Positions 10,183-33,470 of a stretch of DNA of 39,850 nt are shown piece by piece. The position numbers and the translations under genes were made by a program. The DNA comes from Methylophaga sp. Lineage in GTDB: Bacteria > Pseudomonadota > Gammaproteobacteria > Nitrosococcales > Methylophagaceae. Location of the stretch: contig DRHW01000016.1 in assembly GCA_011053005.1 (NCBI GenBank), positions 1 through 39,850 of the forward strand, written 5' to 3'. Below the pieces are notes generated by a model, which made no database searches, had not been told where the DNA came from, and worked only from the letters and a program-made list of their open reading frames with translations. Every line of letters begins with the position of its first letter. Within the stretch, counting starts at the first letter, position 1.

Positions 10183-10875
10183 ATGACAACAAATAAACAC
10201 GAAATTACACATCACAAAAAAAGCTCAAGATCGTTCTTATTCAAAATAATCTTAGTTTTTGCATCCGTTTGTTTTAATCAGTTAGCCCAAGCGTCGCCAA
10301 TCGTTATTCATGTCAACGATATGAATGGCCAACCATTAAGTCAGGCTGTGGTAGAGGTTATACGCCAAATTAATAACTCAAGGCCATCTCCTGTAAGTGC
10401 TAATCCCGCAATTATGGATCAGGTCAATAAACGTTTTTTACCTGATTTAATTTTAATCCATCAAGGACAGTCTGTCGTGTTCCCAAATAGCGATAATATT
10501 CGGCATCATGTCTATTCATTTTCTAAAGCAAAAACGTTTGAAATAAAGCTCTATGCAGGCAAGCCTGAAAAAGCGATTGAGTTTGATACAAACGGCGTGG
10601 TTATTGTCGGTTGTAACATTCATGACTCGATGGTCGGTAGTATTTATGTTGCCCAAGATAGTGCAATGATCACTGATGATAAAGGCGACGTAACATTAGA
10701 TTTTGATCCTAAGGTTGATAAAATTAGTGTTTGGCATCCATTACAAGAAAGCAATCCTGAAGAACGAAAAATCATTGATTTAAAGGATTATCCTTCAGTA
10801 GATAAACATCAATACAGTATTTCTATCGATGTAGGTGACCCTGCGCCTAGAGATACGTTTGGGGATAGTTTCTAG
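10183..10875 (+). CDS. Exported cupredoxin-like protein, methylamine-utilisation-associated type
   Basis: The 230-residue protein has an N-terminal signal or anchor sequence (hydrophobic at about 18-36, cleavage near AQAS). It then has a cupredoxin fold with a copper-site pattern: HH at 108-109, then C144, H147 and M150 in VGCNIHDSMVG. This is the His-Cys-His-Met set of a type 1 blue copper centre. Proteins of this kind are usually annotated as methylamine utilisation protein, though nothing here shows a methylamine role and no mau genes are present. The C-terminal part is a beta-rich extension. It is the first of four abutting genes; its stop codon is followed directly by the GTG of the c-di-GMP gene. 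A periplasmic electron-transfer or copper/NO-sensing role is inferred. Confidence 0.8.
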   Translation: MTTNKHEITHHKKSSRSFLFKIILVFASVCFNQLAQASPIVIHVNDMNGQPLSQAVVEVIRQINNSRPSPVSANPAIMDQVNKRFLPDLILIHQGQSVVFPNSDNIRHHVYSFSKAKTFEIKLYAGKPEKAIEFDTNGVVIVGCNIHDSMVGSIYVAQDSAMITDDKGDVTLDFDPKVDKISVWHPLQESNPEERKIIDLKDYPSVDKHQYSISIDVGDPAPRDTFGDSF

Positions 10876-13194
10876 GTGATAAAAAAAAACAGTCTTCGTC
10901 AAAGCATCATTTTTTTATGTACAGGCTTGGTACTCGTGACGTCTGTTGTTATACAGGGAGTGTCGTGGTGGTCATCGAGTCAATTCAATAAAAAACAGCT
11001 CACCGAGAGTATCGACAACGCTCAAAATGTTTTTGAACAATATACAAAAGAAAAAGAAAAAATACTGACTACCGCAGCAAGGGTATTAACTGCTGATTTT
11101 GGCTTTAAACAGGCTGTTACAACCAATGATAAAGAAACGATTGCCAGCGTTTTATTGAATCATGGTCAGCGTATTGATGCTGATTTGATGTTGTTAACTG
11201 ATTTGAAAGGCCAATTAATATCCTCAAGTATTTCAAAACTTGATCTCAATGCAGCTCAAAGTGCTTCGTTAGGGATATTGTTATTAGAACCCGGCACTAC
11301 GCATTTTATGATACTGCAAAACACGCTTTATCAATTACTCGCTTTGCCTGTCAAAGCACCTAGAACCGTCGCTTATGCCATTGTCGGTTTTGAAATTGAT
11401 TACGATATTGCAGATGAACTGAAAAGACTCACAGGACTTGATGTTAGCTTTTTTAATAGTGCGGGCGAGGTCATCACGACTTCGATGGAACTAACGAATG
11501 AAACACTCACGCCAGATTATCTAACATCAAAAATGTTACCTTGGTTACTGGGCAGTAGATCAGCTTTTGACAGTCGTCAATTTGAACTTGAAACGACAAA
11601 AAAACATCCAGTTAAACTATTTTTAACCGCTGAATTGTCAACGATTTATCAAGAACATGATCGTTTATTGTCATCAACCATCGTTATAGCTTGTTTAATA
11701 ATGCTTATCGCTATTTTACTGAGTCGTATATTTGCTAAAAATTTAACCAAGCCTTTATTGCAATTAGTTGAACAATCAAAAGCTTTTTCTAAGGGCCAAT
11801 ATGCTCATGTTGTTCCCAATCAAAACATTAGCCAAGAGGTGGCGGTATTATTCGAAGCCTTTACTGAAATGGGGAATGCCTTAGATGCACGTGAGCAAAA
11901 AATTATTTATCAATCACAACACGATACGCTGACAGGTTTATATAACCGCCACACATTTAGACAAATTATCAACAAAACCTTAATTAATGAGCAACGACAT
12001 GTCTTAATTACGATTGATATACGTGGTTTTAGCAATCTCAATGATATTTTAGGTGTGCAGGTTGGGGACCGTTGCTTACAAATGCTTGCTCAACGATTAA
12101 TCGGTATTAATGGTAACGATGTACAACATGCTCGATTGGATGGAGATGTTTTTTTATCGCTGATTCCACTGACAGAAGATGTTCATATTGATCGATATGT
12201 ACAAGAGTTTATCAGTGATCTAGCTAAGCCCTTGGATGTTGATTCTCTAACGCTTAATTTAAAGTTTTGGGCGGGTATTGCGATTTATCCACAAGATGGC
12301 AGTGATGCTGCCGCTGTTTTTCGTCGGGCGATGATTGCGCTTGATTATGCTGCTAAAGATAACACTCCGGTTCGTTATTATCATTCGGGGGAAGAAGAAG
12401 CTCGGCAAGAACATCTAACAATCATAGAAGCCTTAAGACTCGCTTTGACAAAAGCCGATGGACAGCTTTACATGAATTATCAGCCTAAACTTAACTTGAA
12501 AACGGGAGAAATAGATAAAGTTGAGGCATTAATTCGCTGGAAGCATCCCGAATTGGGCTTTGTTTCTCCAGAAGTTTTTATTAGTTATGCTGAGCAAACA
12601 GGGATAATTTTTGACTTAACGAGTTGGGTTATTGATACGGTTCTTGAACAATTAAGTAATTGGCAGAAAAATGGATTATTTATTGATGCTGCAATTAATA
12701 TTTCCGCGCAAGATATTAGTCATCCTGATTTCCAGATGAACTTAAATAATGCCGCGGTGAAACATAACATATCACCTGAATATATTACGCTAGAGGTGAC
12801 TGAACGTGATCTTATGCAAGATGAAGTACAAGCGGTTGCATTGCTTCTGGAATTAAAAGAAAAGGGCTATACCATTTCGGTCGATGATTATGGAATTGGT
12901 CAATCTTCATTAGCAAAATTAAAACAATTACCAGTAGATGAGCTTAAAATAGATAAAAGCTTCATTATGCAACTTGCTAGTTCAGAAAGCGATCAAATTA
13001 TAGTGAGTTCAACGATTACATTGGGCCATCGTTTAGGCTTATCTGTTGTTGCCGAAGGTCTTGAAAATAATGGAAGCTTAGATATACTGAGAACGATGGG
13101 ATGCGATCATATTCAAGGATATTTTTTAAGTAAACCGCTATCAGCAAATAGTTTTGTAGAATGGCTTGGGAGTTATTATAAAAATAATATCTAG
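10876..13194 (+). CDS. Membrane GGDEF-EAL protein, probable c-di-GMP phosphodiesterase
   Basis: The 772 residues run in this order: first membrane helix (about 11-30), a periplasmic sensor domain (about 31-262), second helix (265-287), HAMP-like linker (to about 335), GGDEF domain (from HDTLTGLYNRHTF near 349) and EAL domain (from about 515). The GGDEF signature is degenerate, LDGDVF at 421-426, so cyclase activity is unlikely. The EAL domain looks complete: EALIRW at 550-555, NISAQD at 608, EVTERD near 640, DDYGIG at 670, KIDKSF at 691 and VAEGLEN at 725. The likely reaction is cleavage of c-di-GMP to pGpG. It starts with GTG immediately after the cupredoxin stop, so periplasmic signals sensed by or with that protein may set its activity (inference). 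The downstream gene overlaps its end by 29 bases. Confidence 0.9.
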   Translation: MIKKNSLRQSIIFLCTGLVLVTSVVIQGVSWWSSSQFNKKQLTESIDNAQNVFEQYTKEKEKILTTAARVLTADFGFKQAVTTNDKETIASVLLNHGQRIDADLMLLTDLKGQLISSSISKLDLNAAQSASLGILLLEPGTTHFMILQNTLYQLLALPVKAPRTVAYAIVGFEIDYDIADELKRLTGLDVSFFNSAGEVITTSMELTNETLTPDYLTSKMLPWLLGSRSAFDSRQFELETTKKHPVKLFLTAELSTIYQEHDRLLSSTIVIACLIMLIAILLSRIFAKNLTKPLLQLVEQSKAFSKGQYAHVVPNQNISQEVAVLFEAFTEMGNALDAREQKIIYQSQHDTLTGLYNRHTFRQIINKTLINEQRHVLITIDIRGFSNLNDILGVQVGDRCLQMLAQRLIGINGNDVQHARLDGDVFLSLIPLTEDVHIDRYVQEFISDLAKPLDVDSLTLNLKFWAGIAIYPQDGSDAAAVFRRAMIALDYAAKDNTPVRYYHSGEEEARQEHLTIIEALRLALTKADGQLYMNYQPKLNLKTGEIDKVEALIRWKHPELGFVSPEVFISYAEQTGIIFDLTSWVIDTVLEQLSNWQKNGLFIDAAINISAQDISHPDFQMNLNNAAVKHNISPEYITLEVTERDLMQDEVQAVALLLELKEKGYTISVDDYGIGQSSLAKLKQLPVDELKIDKSFIMQLASSESDQIIVSSTITLGHRLGLSVVAEGLENNGSLDILRTMGCDHIQGYFLSKPLSANSFVEWLGSYYKNNI

Positions 13195-14011
13195 ATTAGC
13201 AACATTAGTATTTATATTTGTAGCAACGCCATTATTTGCTGCTGATGGAAAATTATTAGCAACGCCAGGCGTGTCGCAGATCGAAGGCTCAGGTGGCGGC
13301 GGTTTAGTGCCATGGGCTCAATTAGCAGGCTATGCTTCGCAAGATGAAATTGCTGCCAATGCTTTTTGTAGCCAAGCTCAACTCAGCGATTTTAGGTTGA
13401 GGTCATGCGGTGCTCAACTAAACCTTTACGATCGTATTGAACTATCTGCTGCACAACAGAATTTTAGAGTTAATGCTTTGGATACAAGTATTGACCAAAA
13501 TATTATCGGCATTAAGGCACGACTTTATGGTGATCTCGTTTACAGTAAATGGCCTATGGTGAGTTTAGGCATGCAATATAAACATCTAAACGATACTGCC
13601 ATTGCACAGTCACTGGGTGCAAAAGACACAACGGGTGTTGATTGGTATGTAGCTGCGAGTAAACTTCATTTGGGCGCGGTTGCCGGTTATAACTTATTCT
13701 GGAATGTGACTGCACGTCACACTCAAGCCAATGAAATTGGCTTATTAGGTTTCGGTGGCCCAAATCAACAAACACGACTTCAATGGGAAGCATCAACAGC
13801 ACTTTTTTTGAGTAGAGAACTTGCTGTGGGAATTGAGTATCGACAAAAACCAGATAACTTGGGTATTAAAGAGGATAACTGGTCAGATATCTTTGTGGCC
13901 TGGATGCCGAATAAGTCGCTGAGTATAACCGCTGCATGGCTTGATTTGGGATCAATTGCAGGTAATGAAAATCAAAAAGGTCCTTATTTTGCGTTGATGG
14001 GATATTTTTAG
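13166..14011 (+). CDS. DUF3034 family outer-membrane protein
   Basis: The 281-residue protein has a signal peptide (LATLVFIFVATPLFAA, cleavage near residue 25). A mature part rich in alternating hydrophobic/polar strands ends in aromatic YF (ALMGYF), typical of outer-membrane beta-barrels. The GSGGGGLVPWAQLAGY segment near residue 42 is characteristic of DUF3034, a family without known function. No ATG is available in frame; TTG at 13166 is the best start, inside the end of the EAL gene, implying coupled translation. Its stop overlaps the GTG of the haemoglobin gene by one base. A porin or assembly-site role for the cluster is an inference. Confidence 0.8.
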   Translation: MGVIIKIISRLATLVFIFVATPLFAADGKLLATPGVSQIEGSGGGGLVPWAQLAGYASQDEIAANAFCSQAQLSDFRLRSCGAQLNLYDRIELSAAQQNFRVNALDTSIDQNIIGIKARLYGDLVYSKWPMVSLGMQYKHLNDTAIAQSLGAKDTTGVDWYVAASKLHLGAVAGYNLFWNVTARHTQANEIGLLGFGGPNQQTRLQWEASTALFLSRELAVGIEYRQKPDNLGIKEDNWSDIFVAWMPNKSLSITAAWLDLGSIAGNENQKGPYFALMGYF

Positions 14012-14445
14012 TGTTTCAATTAATGCATAAATTTTTAGTAACTATCTGTGTCTTGGCATTGCTATTCGGATGTGCAACACATACCAATCAAGAAACTCTG
14101 TATGAGAAATTGGGTGGTGAAGCAGGCGTTAATGGTATCGTTACTGCATTTATTAAACAAATTGGTGAAGACAAACAAGTCTTCCATTATTTCAAAGATG
14201 CAAGTATTAGCCGATTCCGTAATCAATTAACACAACATCTATGTGCCATCACTGATGGACCGTGCGCTTATACGGGCGACAGTATGATTGATATTCATAC
14301 TGGAATGCATATCACTGAAAAAGATTTTAATCATGTAGTCAATTTATTGATCAATGCGATGAATGAACAAAAAATTTCTCATCGAATACAGAATAAATTG
14401 ATCAATAGATTAGCACCACTGAGAGCTAATATAATTTACATTTAA
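14011..14445 (+). CDS. Lipoprotein-type group I truncated haemoglobin
   Basis: The 144 residues start with a lipoprotein signal peptide whose lipobox is LLFGC, cysteine at residue 21 (or 17 if the ATG at 14023 is used rather than the GTG at 14011). A group I truncated globin follows: YEKLGGEAGVNGIV (helix A/B region), FKDASISRFR, then a loop with CAYTGDSM and the proximal haem histidine H96 in DIHTGMHI. Such globins bind O2 or NO and often detoxify or sense NO. Most are cytoplasmic, so an exported, membrane-anchored form beside a cupredoxin and a c-di-GMP enzyme is notable. Two extra cysteines (C78, C85) could form a disulphide in the periplasm. It is the last of the four packed genes. Confidence 0.85.
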   Translation: MFQLMHKFLVTICVLALLFGCATHTNQETLYEKLGGEAGVNGIVTAFIKQIGEDKQVFHYFKDASISRFRNQLTQHLCAITDGPCAYTGDSMIDIHTGMHITEKDFNHVVNLLINAMNEQKISHRIQNKLINRLAPLRANIIYI

Positions 14446-32586: not shown

Positions 32587-33351
32587 TTATATCGTTTTTT
32601 TAAGACGACGTAATCCTACGAAACCTAATAATGCTGGGGCAAACATCAATGCTGCAGCTGGAATAGGTACAGCGCTTGGAGGAACGATATCTTCTTGAAT
32701 TCCAGCATATAAAACGTCAGCTTGGCTGTAATTATAAAAACCAAACGAACCGTTATTAAATGTACCTGTGATACTGAGCTCTTTATTTCCGTTTACAAAT
32801 ACTTCTACAAGCGAGGCGGTGAAAATCAAATCGAAATCATACGTTGTATTGTCTAGCCAACCTGTAGATCCCAAAGTCGCTGCACGTTGAAGTTCTGTTA
32901 CATTATTTGATGGATTATGTGACCAAGCACCAGAATCATCGCTTAGAGCGCCAGTGACTTGAGAGATTGCTAAGCCCTTAGGTGCAAAACCATAAAAACT
33001 TTGATCTATTTGCTTCCAGTCGATTAATAAATAATTTGCTGAGCTATTATTTAAATCGCCATCGTTATAACCCAGTACAAATCCGATAAAATCATCATCG
33101 GCGGTTGTTTGAACTGTAATCTGGCCTGACAAGGCGTTACCTTGACTATTTTGATTATTATGAAAGACTGTTGGGTTACCATTTACTGTCTGCTTAACAG
33201 CGTTATTAGCTGATTGTAGGTTCCACGTGCCTGTGCCGTTGACCGACCAAGGAGAAAGATCGACGGGTCCAGCGAAGACGGTGCTACTTAGTAAGCTTAA
33301 AGAGAGGATAAGTGCGCTAGATTGAAGGAATGTGTTTATTTTTATTTGCAT
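32587..33351 (-). CDS. VPIPA-CTERM protein with a thrombospondin-C-like domain, under a c-di-GMP riboswitch
   Basis: The protein starts with a signal peptide (hydrophobic to about residue 27, cleavage near VFAG). A beta-sandwich resembling the thrombospondin C-terminal/LamG type follows: DDDFIGFVLGYNDGD, YLLIDWKQ, VEVFVNGNKEL and GSFGFYNYSQ are typical. The end is the sorting signal VPIPAA, a hydrophobic segment and a basic RRLKK tail. It is likely displayed or secreted after exosortase processing and may act in adhesion or matrix. The ATG at 33351 is chosen (254 residues) because AGGTGAG lies six bases upstream; an in-frame ATG at 33384 falls inside the riboswitch. A c-di-GMP-I aptamer precedes it. 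Confidence 0.82.
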   Translation of the reverse strand: MQIKINTFLQSSALILSLSLLSSTVFAGPVDLSPWSVNGTGTWNLQSANNAVKQTVNGNPTVFHNNQNSQGNALSGQITVQTTADDDFIGFVLGYNDGDLNNSSANYLLIDWKQIDQSFYGFAPKGLAISQVTGALSDDSGAWSHNPSNNVTELQRAATLGSTGWLDNTTYDFDLIFTASLVEVFVNGNKELSITGTFNNGSFGFYNYSQADVLYAGIQEDIVPPSAVPIPAAALMFAPALLGFVGLRRLKKTI

Positions 33352-33370
33352 GAGGCTCACCTGTTTTAAA

Positions 33371-33448
33371 TGCAACCCAGCCATCTTTATTGATTACAAG
33401 CTAAAGACCTGAAGCTTTCCGTTCCTTAGTTCACACCAAGGTTGGCAG
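33371..33448 (-). ncRNA. c-di-GMP-I (GEMM) riboswitch
   Basis: Read on the minus strand, the leader matches the GEMM-I aptamer of Vibrio cholerae Vc2 element by element. CCAACC is followed by a 7-base-pair hairpin with a GUGA (GNRA) tetraloop (33434-33431). Next is GGAACGGAAAGC (33425-33414; Vc2 GGGACGCAAAGC), then a second stem CAG-G-UCUUUA ... UAAAGA-UGG-CUG. It keeps the Vc2 stem-internal-loop-stem layout with compensating base pairs. GGGUUGC (33378-33372) closes the element. The three ligand-contact bases align: G20 at 33446, A47 at 33417, C92 at 33372. It ends about 20 bases before the ATG, so it probably controls translation initiation. Alignment is by eye against remembered Vc2. Confidence 0.85.
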
Positions 33449-33470
33449 TTAAGTATATGATGCAAATAGA

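Follow-up and report, generated by a model that had tools for sequence, protein, structure and literature searches.

A conserved four-gene set of Methylophaga and other Pseudomonadota combines a putative copper protein, a probable cyclic di-GMP phosphodiesterase, a predicted outer-membrane barrel and a truncated globin

In a stretch of Methylophaga sp. DNA (assembly GCA_011053005.1, contig DRHW01000016.1, positions 1 to 39,850; this whole stretch of 39,850 nucleotides is referred to as the window), an earlier note had singled out four consecutive genes as one envelope unit: a cupredoxin gene, a gene for a GGDEF-EAL enzyme of bis-(3',5')-cyclic dimeric guanosine monophosphate (c-di-GMP) turnover, a DUF3034 barrel gene and the gene for an anchored haemoglobin. 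We confirmed the observation of this four-gene set, which is stronger than first stated. The proposed identities were also upheld, that of the cupredoxin by its ligand residues and a structural model, and those of the GGDEF-EAL, DUF3034 and globin proteins by Pfam. The four genes, with the basis of each assignment, are as follows.

10183-10875, + strand: MauL-like cupredoxin (predicted), 230 amino acids (aa); open reading frame (ORF), ligand residues, model fold.
10876-13194, + strand: dCache_3-GGDEF-EAL protein, 772 aa, with a sub-threshold HAMP match; Pfam, residue alignment.
13166-14011, + strand: DUF3034 outer-membrane beta-barrel (predicted), 281 aa as an ORF, start uncertain; PF11231, model.
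14011-14445, probably from the ATG at 14023, + strand: group 1 truncated globin (truncated haemoglobin, trHb) with the lipobox LLFGC; PF01152, PDB matches.

The four ORFs lie head to tail and, as had been claimed, abut or overlap, although the starts of the DUF3034 and globin genes have to be corrected to uncertain. At the first junction, the TAG stop of the MauL ORF abuts the GTG start of the GGDEF-EAL ORF, exactly as described. The 29-base and one-base overlaps reported for the other two junctions are in doubt: (i) the nearest relative shows an ATG in place of the ATA at 13187-13189 of the window, so that the true start possibly lies near 13187 and the 29-base overlap with the GGDEF-EAL gene may be shorter; and (ii) the ATG at 14023 suits the globin family alignment better than the GTG at 14011, and a start there would replace the one-base overlap with an 11-base gap. 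In a sequence scan, promoter-like sites were at chance level (15 found, 17.6 expected) and terminator-like sites slightly above it (5 found, 2.8 expected, standard deviation 1.6), all five of the latter lying inside genes.

To our set of 398 Pseudomonadota genomes, PF11231 contributes matches in 39 (28 of 213 genera); within the genus of the window its distribution is patchy (3 of 29 genomes). We took one DUF3034 locus per genome, 39 in all, with the window included, one locus partial and a broken second DUF3034/trHb copy of genome G078 (locus L084, 7180-8410) left out. Distances were measured by stop codons because ORF starts had been taken as the longest possible. A trHb gene is adjacent on the same strand in all 39 loci, MauL lies within 6 kb in 33, the GGDEF-EAL gene in 31, and all four genes are present in 30. 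The order MauL-EAL-DUF3034-trHb was found 23 times, the order DUF3034-trHb-MauL-EAL once (L058), and divergent pairs six times. Long ORFs in the GC-rich loci L058 and L070 that looked like trHb-DUF3034 fusions were rejected, as the two genes overlap in different frames there and the fusions are an effect of a crude ORF caller.

Furthermore, the four genes stand in identical order in 15 of 15 loci retrieved by similarity to the DUF3034 protein of the window (12 from Pseudoalteromonas, one from a Methylophaga metagenome-assembled genome (MAG), one from Teredinibacter waterburyi and one from a Pseudomonadota MAG); owing to that mode of retrieval these are close relatives only, and locus L002 and genome G403 seem to come from a single assembly. 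On plasmids, where four of 13 matches were viewed, we found the order DUF3034-trHb-MauL-EAL on two from Caballeronia and a divergent arrangement on one from Novosphingobium. A third Caballeronia plasmid has the same order as the first two, with a short 'cache domain-containing protein' (L153, 7953-8369) replacing the full GGDEF-EAL protein. The recurrence in other gammaproteobacteria that the earlier note mentioned is thus borne out by a neighbourhood search and extends beyond that class. The notion of one conserved unit at the envelope fares similarly, the gene set being kept and the location following from sequence and predicted fold.

Since complete sets occur in permuted orders, a joint function is better supported than it would be by a single frozen order. 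The alternative, chance clustering or co-transcription of unrelated genes, might draw on the two uncertain junctions. However, the grouping exceeds chance, as it is conserved both across relatives and in the 398-genome set; three conserved arrangements and the near-perfect co-occurrence of DUF3034 with trHb had already made this alternative unlikely, and we regard it as scarcely credible.

That co-occurrence is also evident genome-wide. A trHb match of at least 140 bits is present in 39 of the 39 DUF3034 genomes versus 2 of the 359 others (94 bits is the next score down), and a MauL match of at least 160 bits in 38 of 39 versus 12 of 359. Because members of these loci served to build both models, high scores inside the set arise partly by construction; each genome had no more than 7 or 10 candidates scored, so that absence is not absolute; and the Fisher statistics ignore shared ancestry. 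A PHROGs search gave no match.

We then classed 56 MauL genes scoring at least 150 bits by their neighbours within 4 kb (L091 and L111-L115, below 150 bits, were left out). DUF3034, trHb and GGDEF-EAL are all nearby in 30 cases, GGDEF-EAL plus a porin-like gene in 8, a porin-like gene only in 5, GGDEF-EAL only in 5, DUF3034 plus trHb only in 3, and none of these families in 5. GGDEF-EAL thus adjoins 43 of the 56 MauL genes, and 46 adjoin either DUF3034 (33) or a porin-like gene (13). The gene set is modular, because MauL adjoins GGDEF-EAL at 13 loci without DUF3034 nearby, 8 of them with a porin-like gene. In those eight (L094, L097, L089, L107, L099, L100, L102 and L101), six of them in DUF3034-free genomes, MauL and GGDEF-EAL are followed by a member of a porin-like family (about 410 aa) in the place of DUF3034 and trHb. 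This family is weakly identified: in a Pfam scan covering 18 neighbours in other loci and two window proteins, porin or barrel models were matched by 4 of the 8 members included, always below cut-off, and 10 of 13 members end in Phe, Trp or Tyr. Kinship of DUF3034 with the porin-like family was unsupported (HH probability 18%, E 0.0013, in a single comparison). Two loci (L046, 1555-7200; L047, 8749-14347) have two GGDEF-EAL genes of the same type flanking MauL, probably through local duplication. We read the overall pattern as a core pair, MauL and GGDEF-EAL, with an exchangeable outer-membrane part, DUF3034 being the version that brings a globin.

The same census lends something to a different view, in which cupredoxin, barrel and globin would form a working device (to transfer electrons, handle copper or haem, or detoxify a reactive small molecule) and the GGDEF-EAL protein would regulate it or tie it to surface growth. 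No such GGDEF-EAL gene lies near the five MauL genes with a porin-like neighbour, the three with DUF3034 and trHb, or the five with none of the families. In one of the first five loci (L096, 1883-6836) MauL and the porin-like gene come after genes for a TonB receptor and a PKHD-type hydroxylase, and an unannotated locus (L098, 1997-7106) has the same gene sizes and order. However, incidental signalling is hard to square with a GGDEF-EAL neighbour kept at 43 of 56 MauL genes, and we consider such a device rather unlikely.

The MauL-like protein has no Pfam match. It begins with a signal sequence (export signals and the globin lipobox were identified by eye) and appears to consist of a transthyretin/CnaB-like sandwich (approximately residues 37-60 plus 160-219) that encloses a cupredoxin domain (about residues 74-157). 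H108, C144, H147 and M150, which provide the type 1 copper ligand set of His, Cys, His and Met, are invariant in all 56 MauL homologues of at least 150 bits and in four of four plasmid hold-outs. In an AlphaFold2 model (predicted local distance difference test score (pLDDT) 75.9, alignment of 16 sequences), residues 74-157 match plastocyanin with Z 9.0, a modest margin over the Z 7-8 often reached by chance (root-mean-square deviation (rmsd) 2.3, 84 residues aligned, target of 97 residues), and the range 38-219 matches transthyretin/CnaB-like sandwiches (e.g., Z 9.6, rmsd 2.5, 77 aligned). The best Foldseek matches were pseudoazurin (E 4.2e-4) and amicyanin (E 8.9e-4). A cupredoxin fold is thus predicted for MauL, making it a putative copper protein. 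It shares the His-Cys-His-Met ligands and the predicted fold with amicyanin, plastocyanin and pseudoazurin, and its C-x2-H-x2-M spacing is that of amicyanin, whose copper ligands are His53, Cys92, His95 and Met98 according to the excerpted text of PMC12723479. It differs from all three in that its sequence profile finds no cupredoxin in the PDB (the one match was chance-like, E 0.23), in its nesting within a transthyretin-like sandwich and in having a c-di-GMP enzyme as neighbour. The plasmid relatives are annotated 'methylamine utilization protein' (three) or 'carboxypeptidase regulatory-like domain-containing protein' (one, from Novosphingobium).

The protein encoded next matches dCache_3 (52 bits), GGDEF (92 bits) and EAL (231 bits) in Pfam, as well as HAMP, at 20 bits under its cut-off of 25. 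The residues that we take to be the catalytic ones of the EAL domain (E550, N608, E640, D670, D671, K691, E727 and Q747) are each kept in all 48 proteins compared from these loci. The window protein has DGDVF in place of GGDEF and accordingly lacks the diguanylate cyclase signature, which is canonical in 21 of the 48 relatives. What had been described as a c-di-GMP enzyme is therefore, to judge from these residues, most likely a phosphodiesterase with a regulatory GGDEF domain.

Its membrane layout and degenerate GGDEF resemble LapD, which raises the question of inside-out signalling, whereby the protein would sense cytoplasmic c-di-GMP and act outward on MauL and, by way of it, on barrel and globin. 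However, the NCBIfam LapD equivalog model gives it 125 bits against a cut-off of 1020, which places it outside that family, and is outscored by the DibA (309 bits) and DosP (273 bits) models, both also under their own cut-offs. All 48 proteins retain the full set of EAL catalytic residues, unlike LapD, and the periplasmic domain is a dCache_3 match. We judge signalling of this kind to be quite improbable.

The third protein matches PF11231 with 356 bits. Its model (pLDDT 64.6) has 12 long strands, and the chain ends in Phe (by eye); it aligns with FapF (Z 17.4, rmsd 3.1, 208 aligned) and with KdgM (Z 16.5, rmsd 2.5, 170 aligned). From the even strand number, the signal sequence and the terminal aromatic residue, DUF3034 is predicted to be an outer-membrane beta-barrel; the fold matches indicate a barrel, not a function. 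Although it shares the predicted barrel fold with FapF, KdgM and NanC, DUF3034 has no credible sequence match to solved structures (the only PDB match of its profile was chance-like, E 0.25) and carries a conserved Gly-rich stretch near the N-terminus, which has low model confidence.

The globin matches PF01152 (Bac_globin) with 60.7 bits (cut-off 21), and group 1 truncated haemoglobins are its top matches in the PDB. We compared 54 globins from DUF3034 loci, including those of the window and the 15 close relatives (the broken copy L084 was again left out). The F8 His, the CD1 Phe and two cysteines, C78 and C85, are invariant in all 54; by profile, F8 His and CD1 Phe, the window protein is a group 1 truncated haemoglobin. 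The lipobox Cys is aligned in 41 of 54. Thus, in the proposed haem-binding lipoprotein, the haem ligand holds throughout the family, while the lipid anchor is not universal.

The distal pocket of the window globin is apolar (B10 Ile, E7 Phe, E11 Leu). B10 is never Tyr among the 54 (I, L, V or M in 53, N in one) and E11 is Leu or Phe in every one, whereas three other truncated globins of the window's genome have Tyr at B10. The network of Tyr B10 and Gln E11 found in trHbN of the NO-dioxygenase type (NO, nitric oxide) is therefore absent, with Ile and Leu at these positions in the window. Compared with HbN and Tetrahymena trHb, the window globin shares PF01152, the group 1 PDB matches, F8 His and CD1 Phe, but differs by its signal or lipobox sequence, its two invariant cysteines and its apolar B10 and E11. 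The four plasmid hold-outs keep both cysteines, F8 His and Leu E11; three of them, all from Caballeronia, have Tyr at B10, which rules out a family-wide loss of this residue. For the control comparison, 18 of 30 globins were aligned and read. B10 is Trp or Phe, and both E7 and E11 are Val, in group 1-like truncated globins from genomes of the window's genus without a DUF3034 match (L137, L139-L142 and L144-L146). Exported-type truncated globin domains fused to multihaem cytochromes are described for cable bacteria in the excerpted text of PMC11976967.

The apolar pocket, set against the Tyr B10 of the three globins in the same genome, is what a dedicated NO sensor would lead one to expect. In this narrower form of the interpretation given below, the globin would bind NO over O2 and, via MauL, activate the phosphodiesterase, leading to biofilm dispersal. 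A title cited in the reference list of PMC3820574 describes the B10-E7-E11 network as critical for O2 bound to a Tetrahymena trHb, and the host genome carries NnrS and gave no match to H-NOX. However, the Tyr B10 of three of the four hold-outs speaks against such a sensor, and NnrS is not enriched (20 of 39 DUF3034 genomes versus 190 of 359 others), which leaves no link to NO metabolism through this protein. We consider a dedicated NO sensor improbable. The NnrS gene of the host (G000:C16:78928-80064, - strand) lies outside the window, on the same contig, about 65 kb from the locus.

Taking the gene set as a whole, we tentatively favor, with less than even confidence, an envelope sensory unit that sets c-di-GMP, in which a periplasmic redox or gas sensor would drive the phosphodiesterase. 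MauL would be the periplasmic partner of the dCache domain, as both genes stay side by side at the 13 places without DUF3034 nearby. DUF3034 and trHb would form an input module at the outer membrane, since they are neighbours in 39 of 39 loci, including those where the other two genes lie elsewhere. The trHb might react with a small diatomic or redox-active molecule and feed MauL; a change in the redox or ligand state of the MauL copper could then alter the dCache domain and thereby switch the EAL phosphodiesterase, with the degenerate GGDEF as a regulatory domain. This scheme presumes that the proteins are exported, that the topology is as drawn from their sequences, that MauL contacts the dCache domain and that the signal is redox or gas, all of which we infer. 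Broader still, the locus may represent a widespread, undescribed trans-envelope system in which a barrel and an exported globin signal via a type 1 copper protein to a phosphodiesterase, the input being exchangeable for another porin-like barrel; we regard this wider proposal as possible but doubtful.

Several results weigh against the envelope sensory unit, in addition to the Caballeronia Tyr B10 and the missing link to NnrS. Nine of the 39 DUF3034 loci lack MauL, GGDEF-EAL or both nearby. In five of these nine genomes (G213, G225, G246, G261 and G389) the MauL/GGDEF-EAL pair sits elsewhere, and in G126 the GGDEF-EAL gene is at the DUF3034 locus and MauL elsewhere in the genome. In G142 and G019, MauL accompanies DUF3034 and trHb, and the fetched stretch, to which the search for GGDEF-EAL was confined, contains none of at least 600 bits; in G142 one of about 500 bits lies close by on the opposite strand. 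G078, which has DUF3034 and trHb, lacks both MauL and GGDEF-EAL at the locus, and the genome search gave no match to MauL. Of the 12 MauL genomes without DUF3034, only 6 keep this GGDEF-EAL next to MauL. The proposed pairs do not stand out in the distance correlations between the four families (Spearman 0.45-0.70, 34 loci), that of MauL with the sensor protein (0.53) being lower than that of MauL with trHb (0.59). Finally, inspection by eye finds no cysteine in the dCache domain, and sensing the state of MauL would therefore need a contact not yet seen.

Known systems offer partial parallels. Globin-coupled sensors and H-NOX-type regulators are cytoplasmic. YfiBNR of Pseudomonas aeruginosa resembles the proposed unit in being a periplasm-controlled c-di-GMP system with an outer-membrane lipoprotein; there a cyclase works with YfiR and the OmpA-like YfiB, whereas here a phosphodiesterase-type protein stands with a cupredoxin, a barrel and a globin. 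No Pfam match to YfiR- or OmpA-type families was found in the four proteins, which places the locus outside YfiBNR. In globin-coupled sensors and H-NOX-type regulators a haem protein is likewise linked to c-di-GMP enzymes (PMC8846402, excerpted text). Globin-coupled sensors are fused to the enzyme, whereas here the globin gene is separate and encodes an exported-looking group 1 protein, so the locus falls outside that class too.

The same 2022 census of c-di-GMP stimuli (PMC8846402) describes globins, in the excerpted text, as globin-coupled sensors, and by term counts the words 'copper', 'lipoprotein' and 'outer membrane' are absent from its main text. Consistent with the earlier remark that the gene combination has no described function, no description of the four-gene system was found among the matches listed in the open-access literature on truncated globin, cupredoxin, methylamine utilization protein and Pseudoalteromonas with c-di-GMP or EAL. 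In the open-access excerpts where the term DUF3034 occurs, the text around it concerns matters other than this locus. The cdgB gene of P. marina (PMC10994910) was considered and set aside, as it is compared there with PA1727/mucR and the excerpted text holds no link to the locus.

Elsewhere in the window, some 19 kb past the end of the locus, a c-di-GMP-I riboswitch (45.2 bits) lies at 33368-33456 on the - strand, just upstream of a gene for a TSP_C-type protein (start by eye at 33351; TSP_C 43.7 bits, cut-off 25.6; PEP-CTERM-like C-terminus by eye). Together they may specify a c-di-GMP-controlled surface protein.

The locus may thus be a conserved variant of periplasm-controlled c-di-GMP signalling, for which we found no description among the literature matches listed. 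The conserved gene set suggests an unstudied system by which these bacteria could sense conditions at the envelope and adjust their behaviour. The modular co-occurrence of its genes makes the partners directly testable. If the interpretation is correct, it would supply a context for DUF3034 and for proteins that carry the label 'methylamine utilization protein', and would provide a route from periplasmic copper redox chemistry and haem ligands to the level of c-di-GMP.

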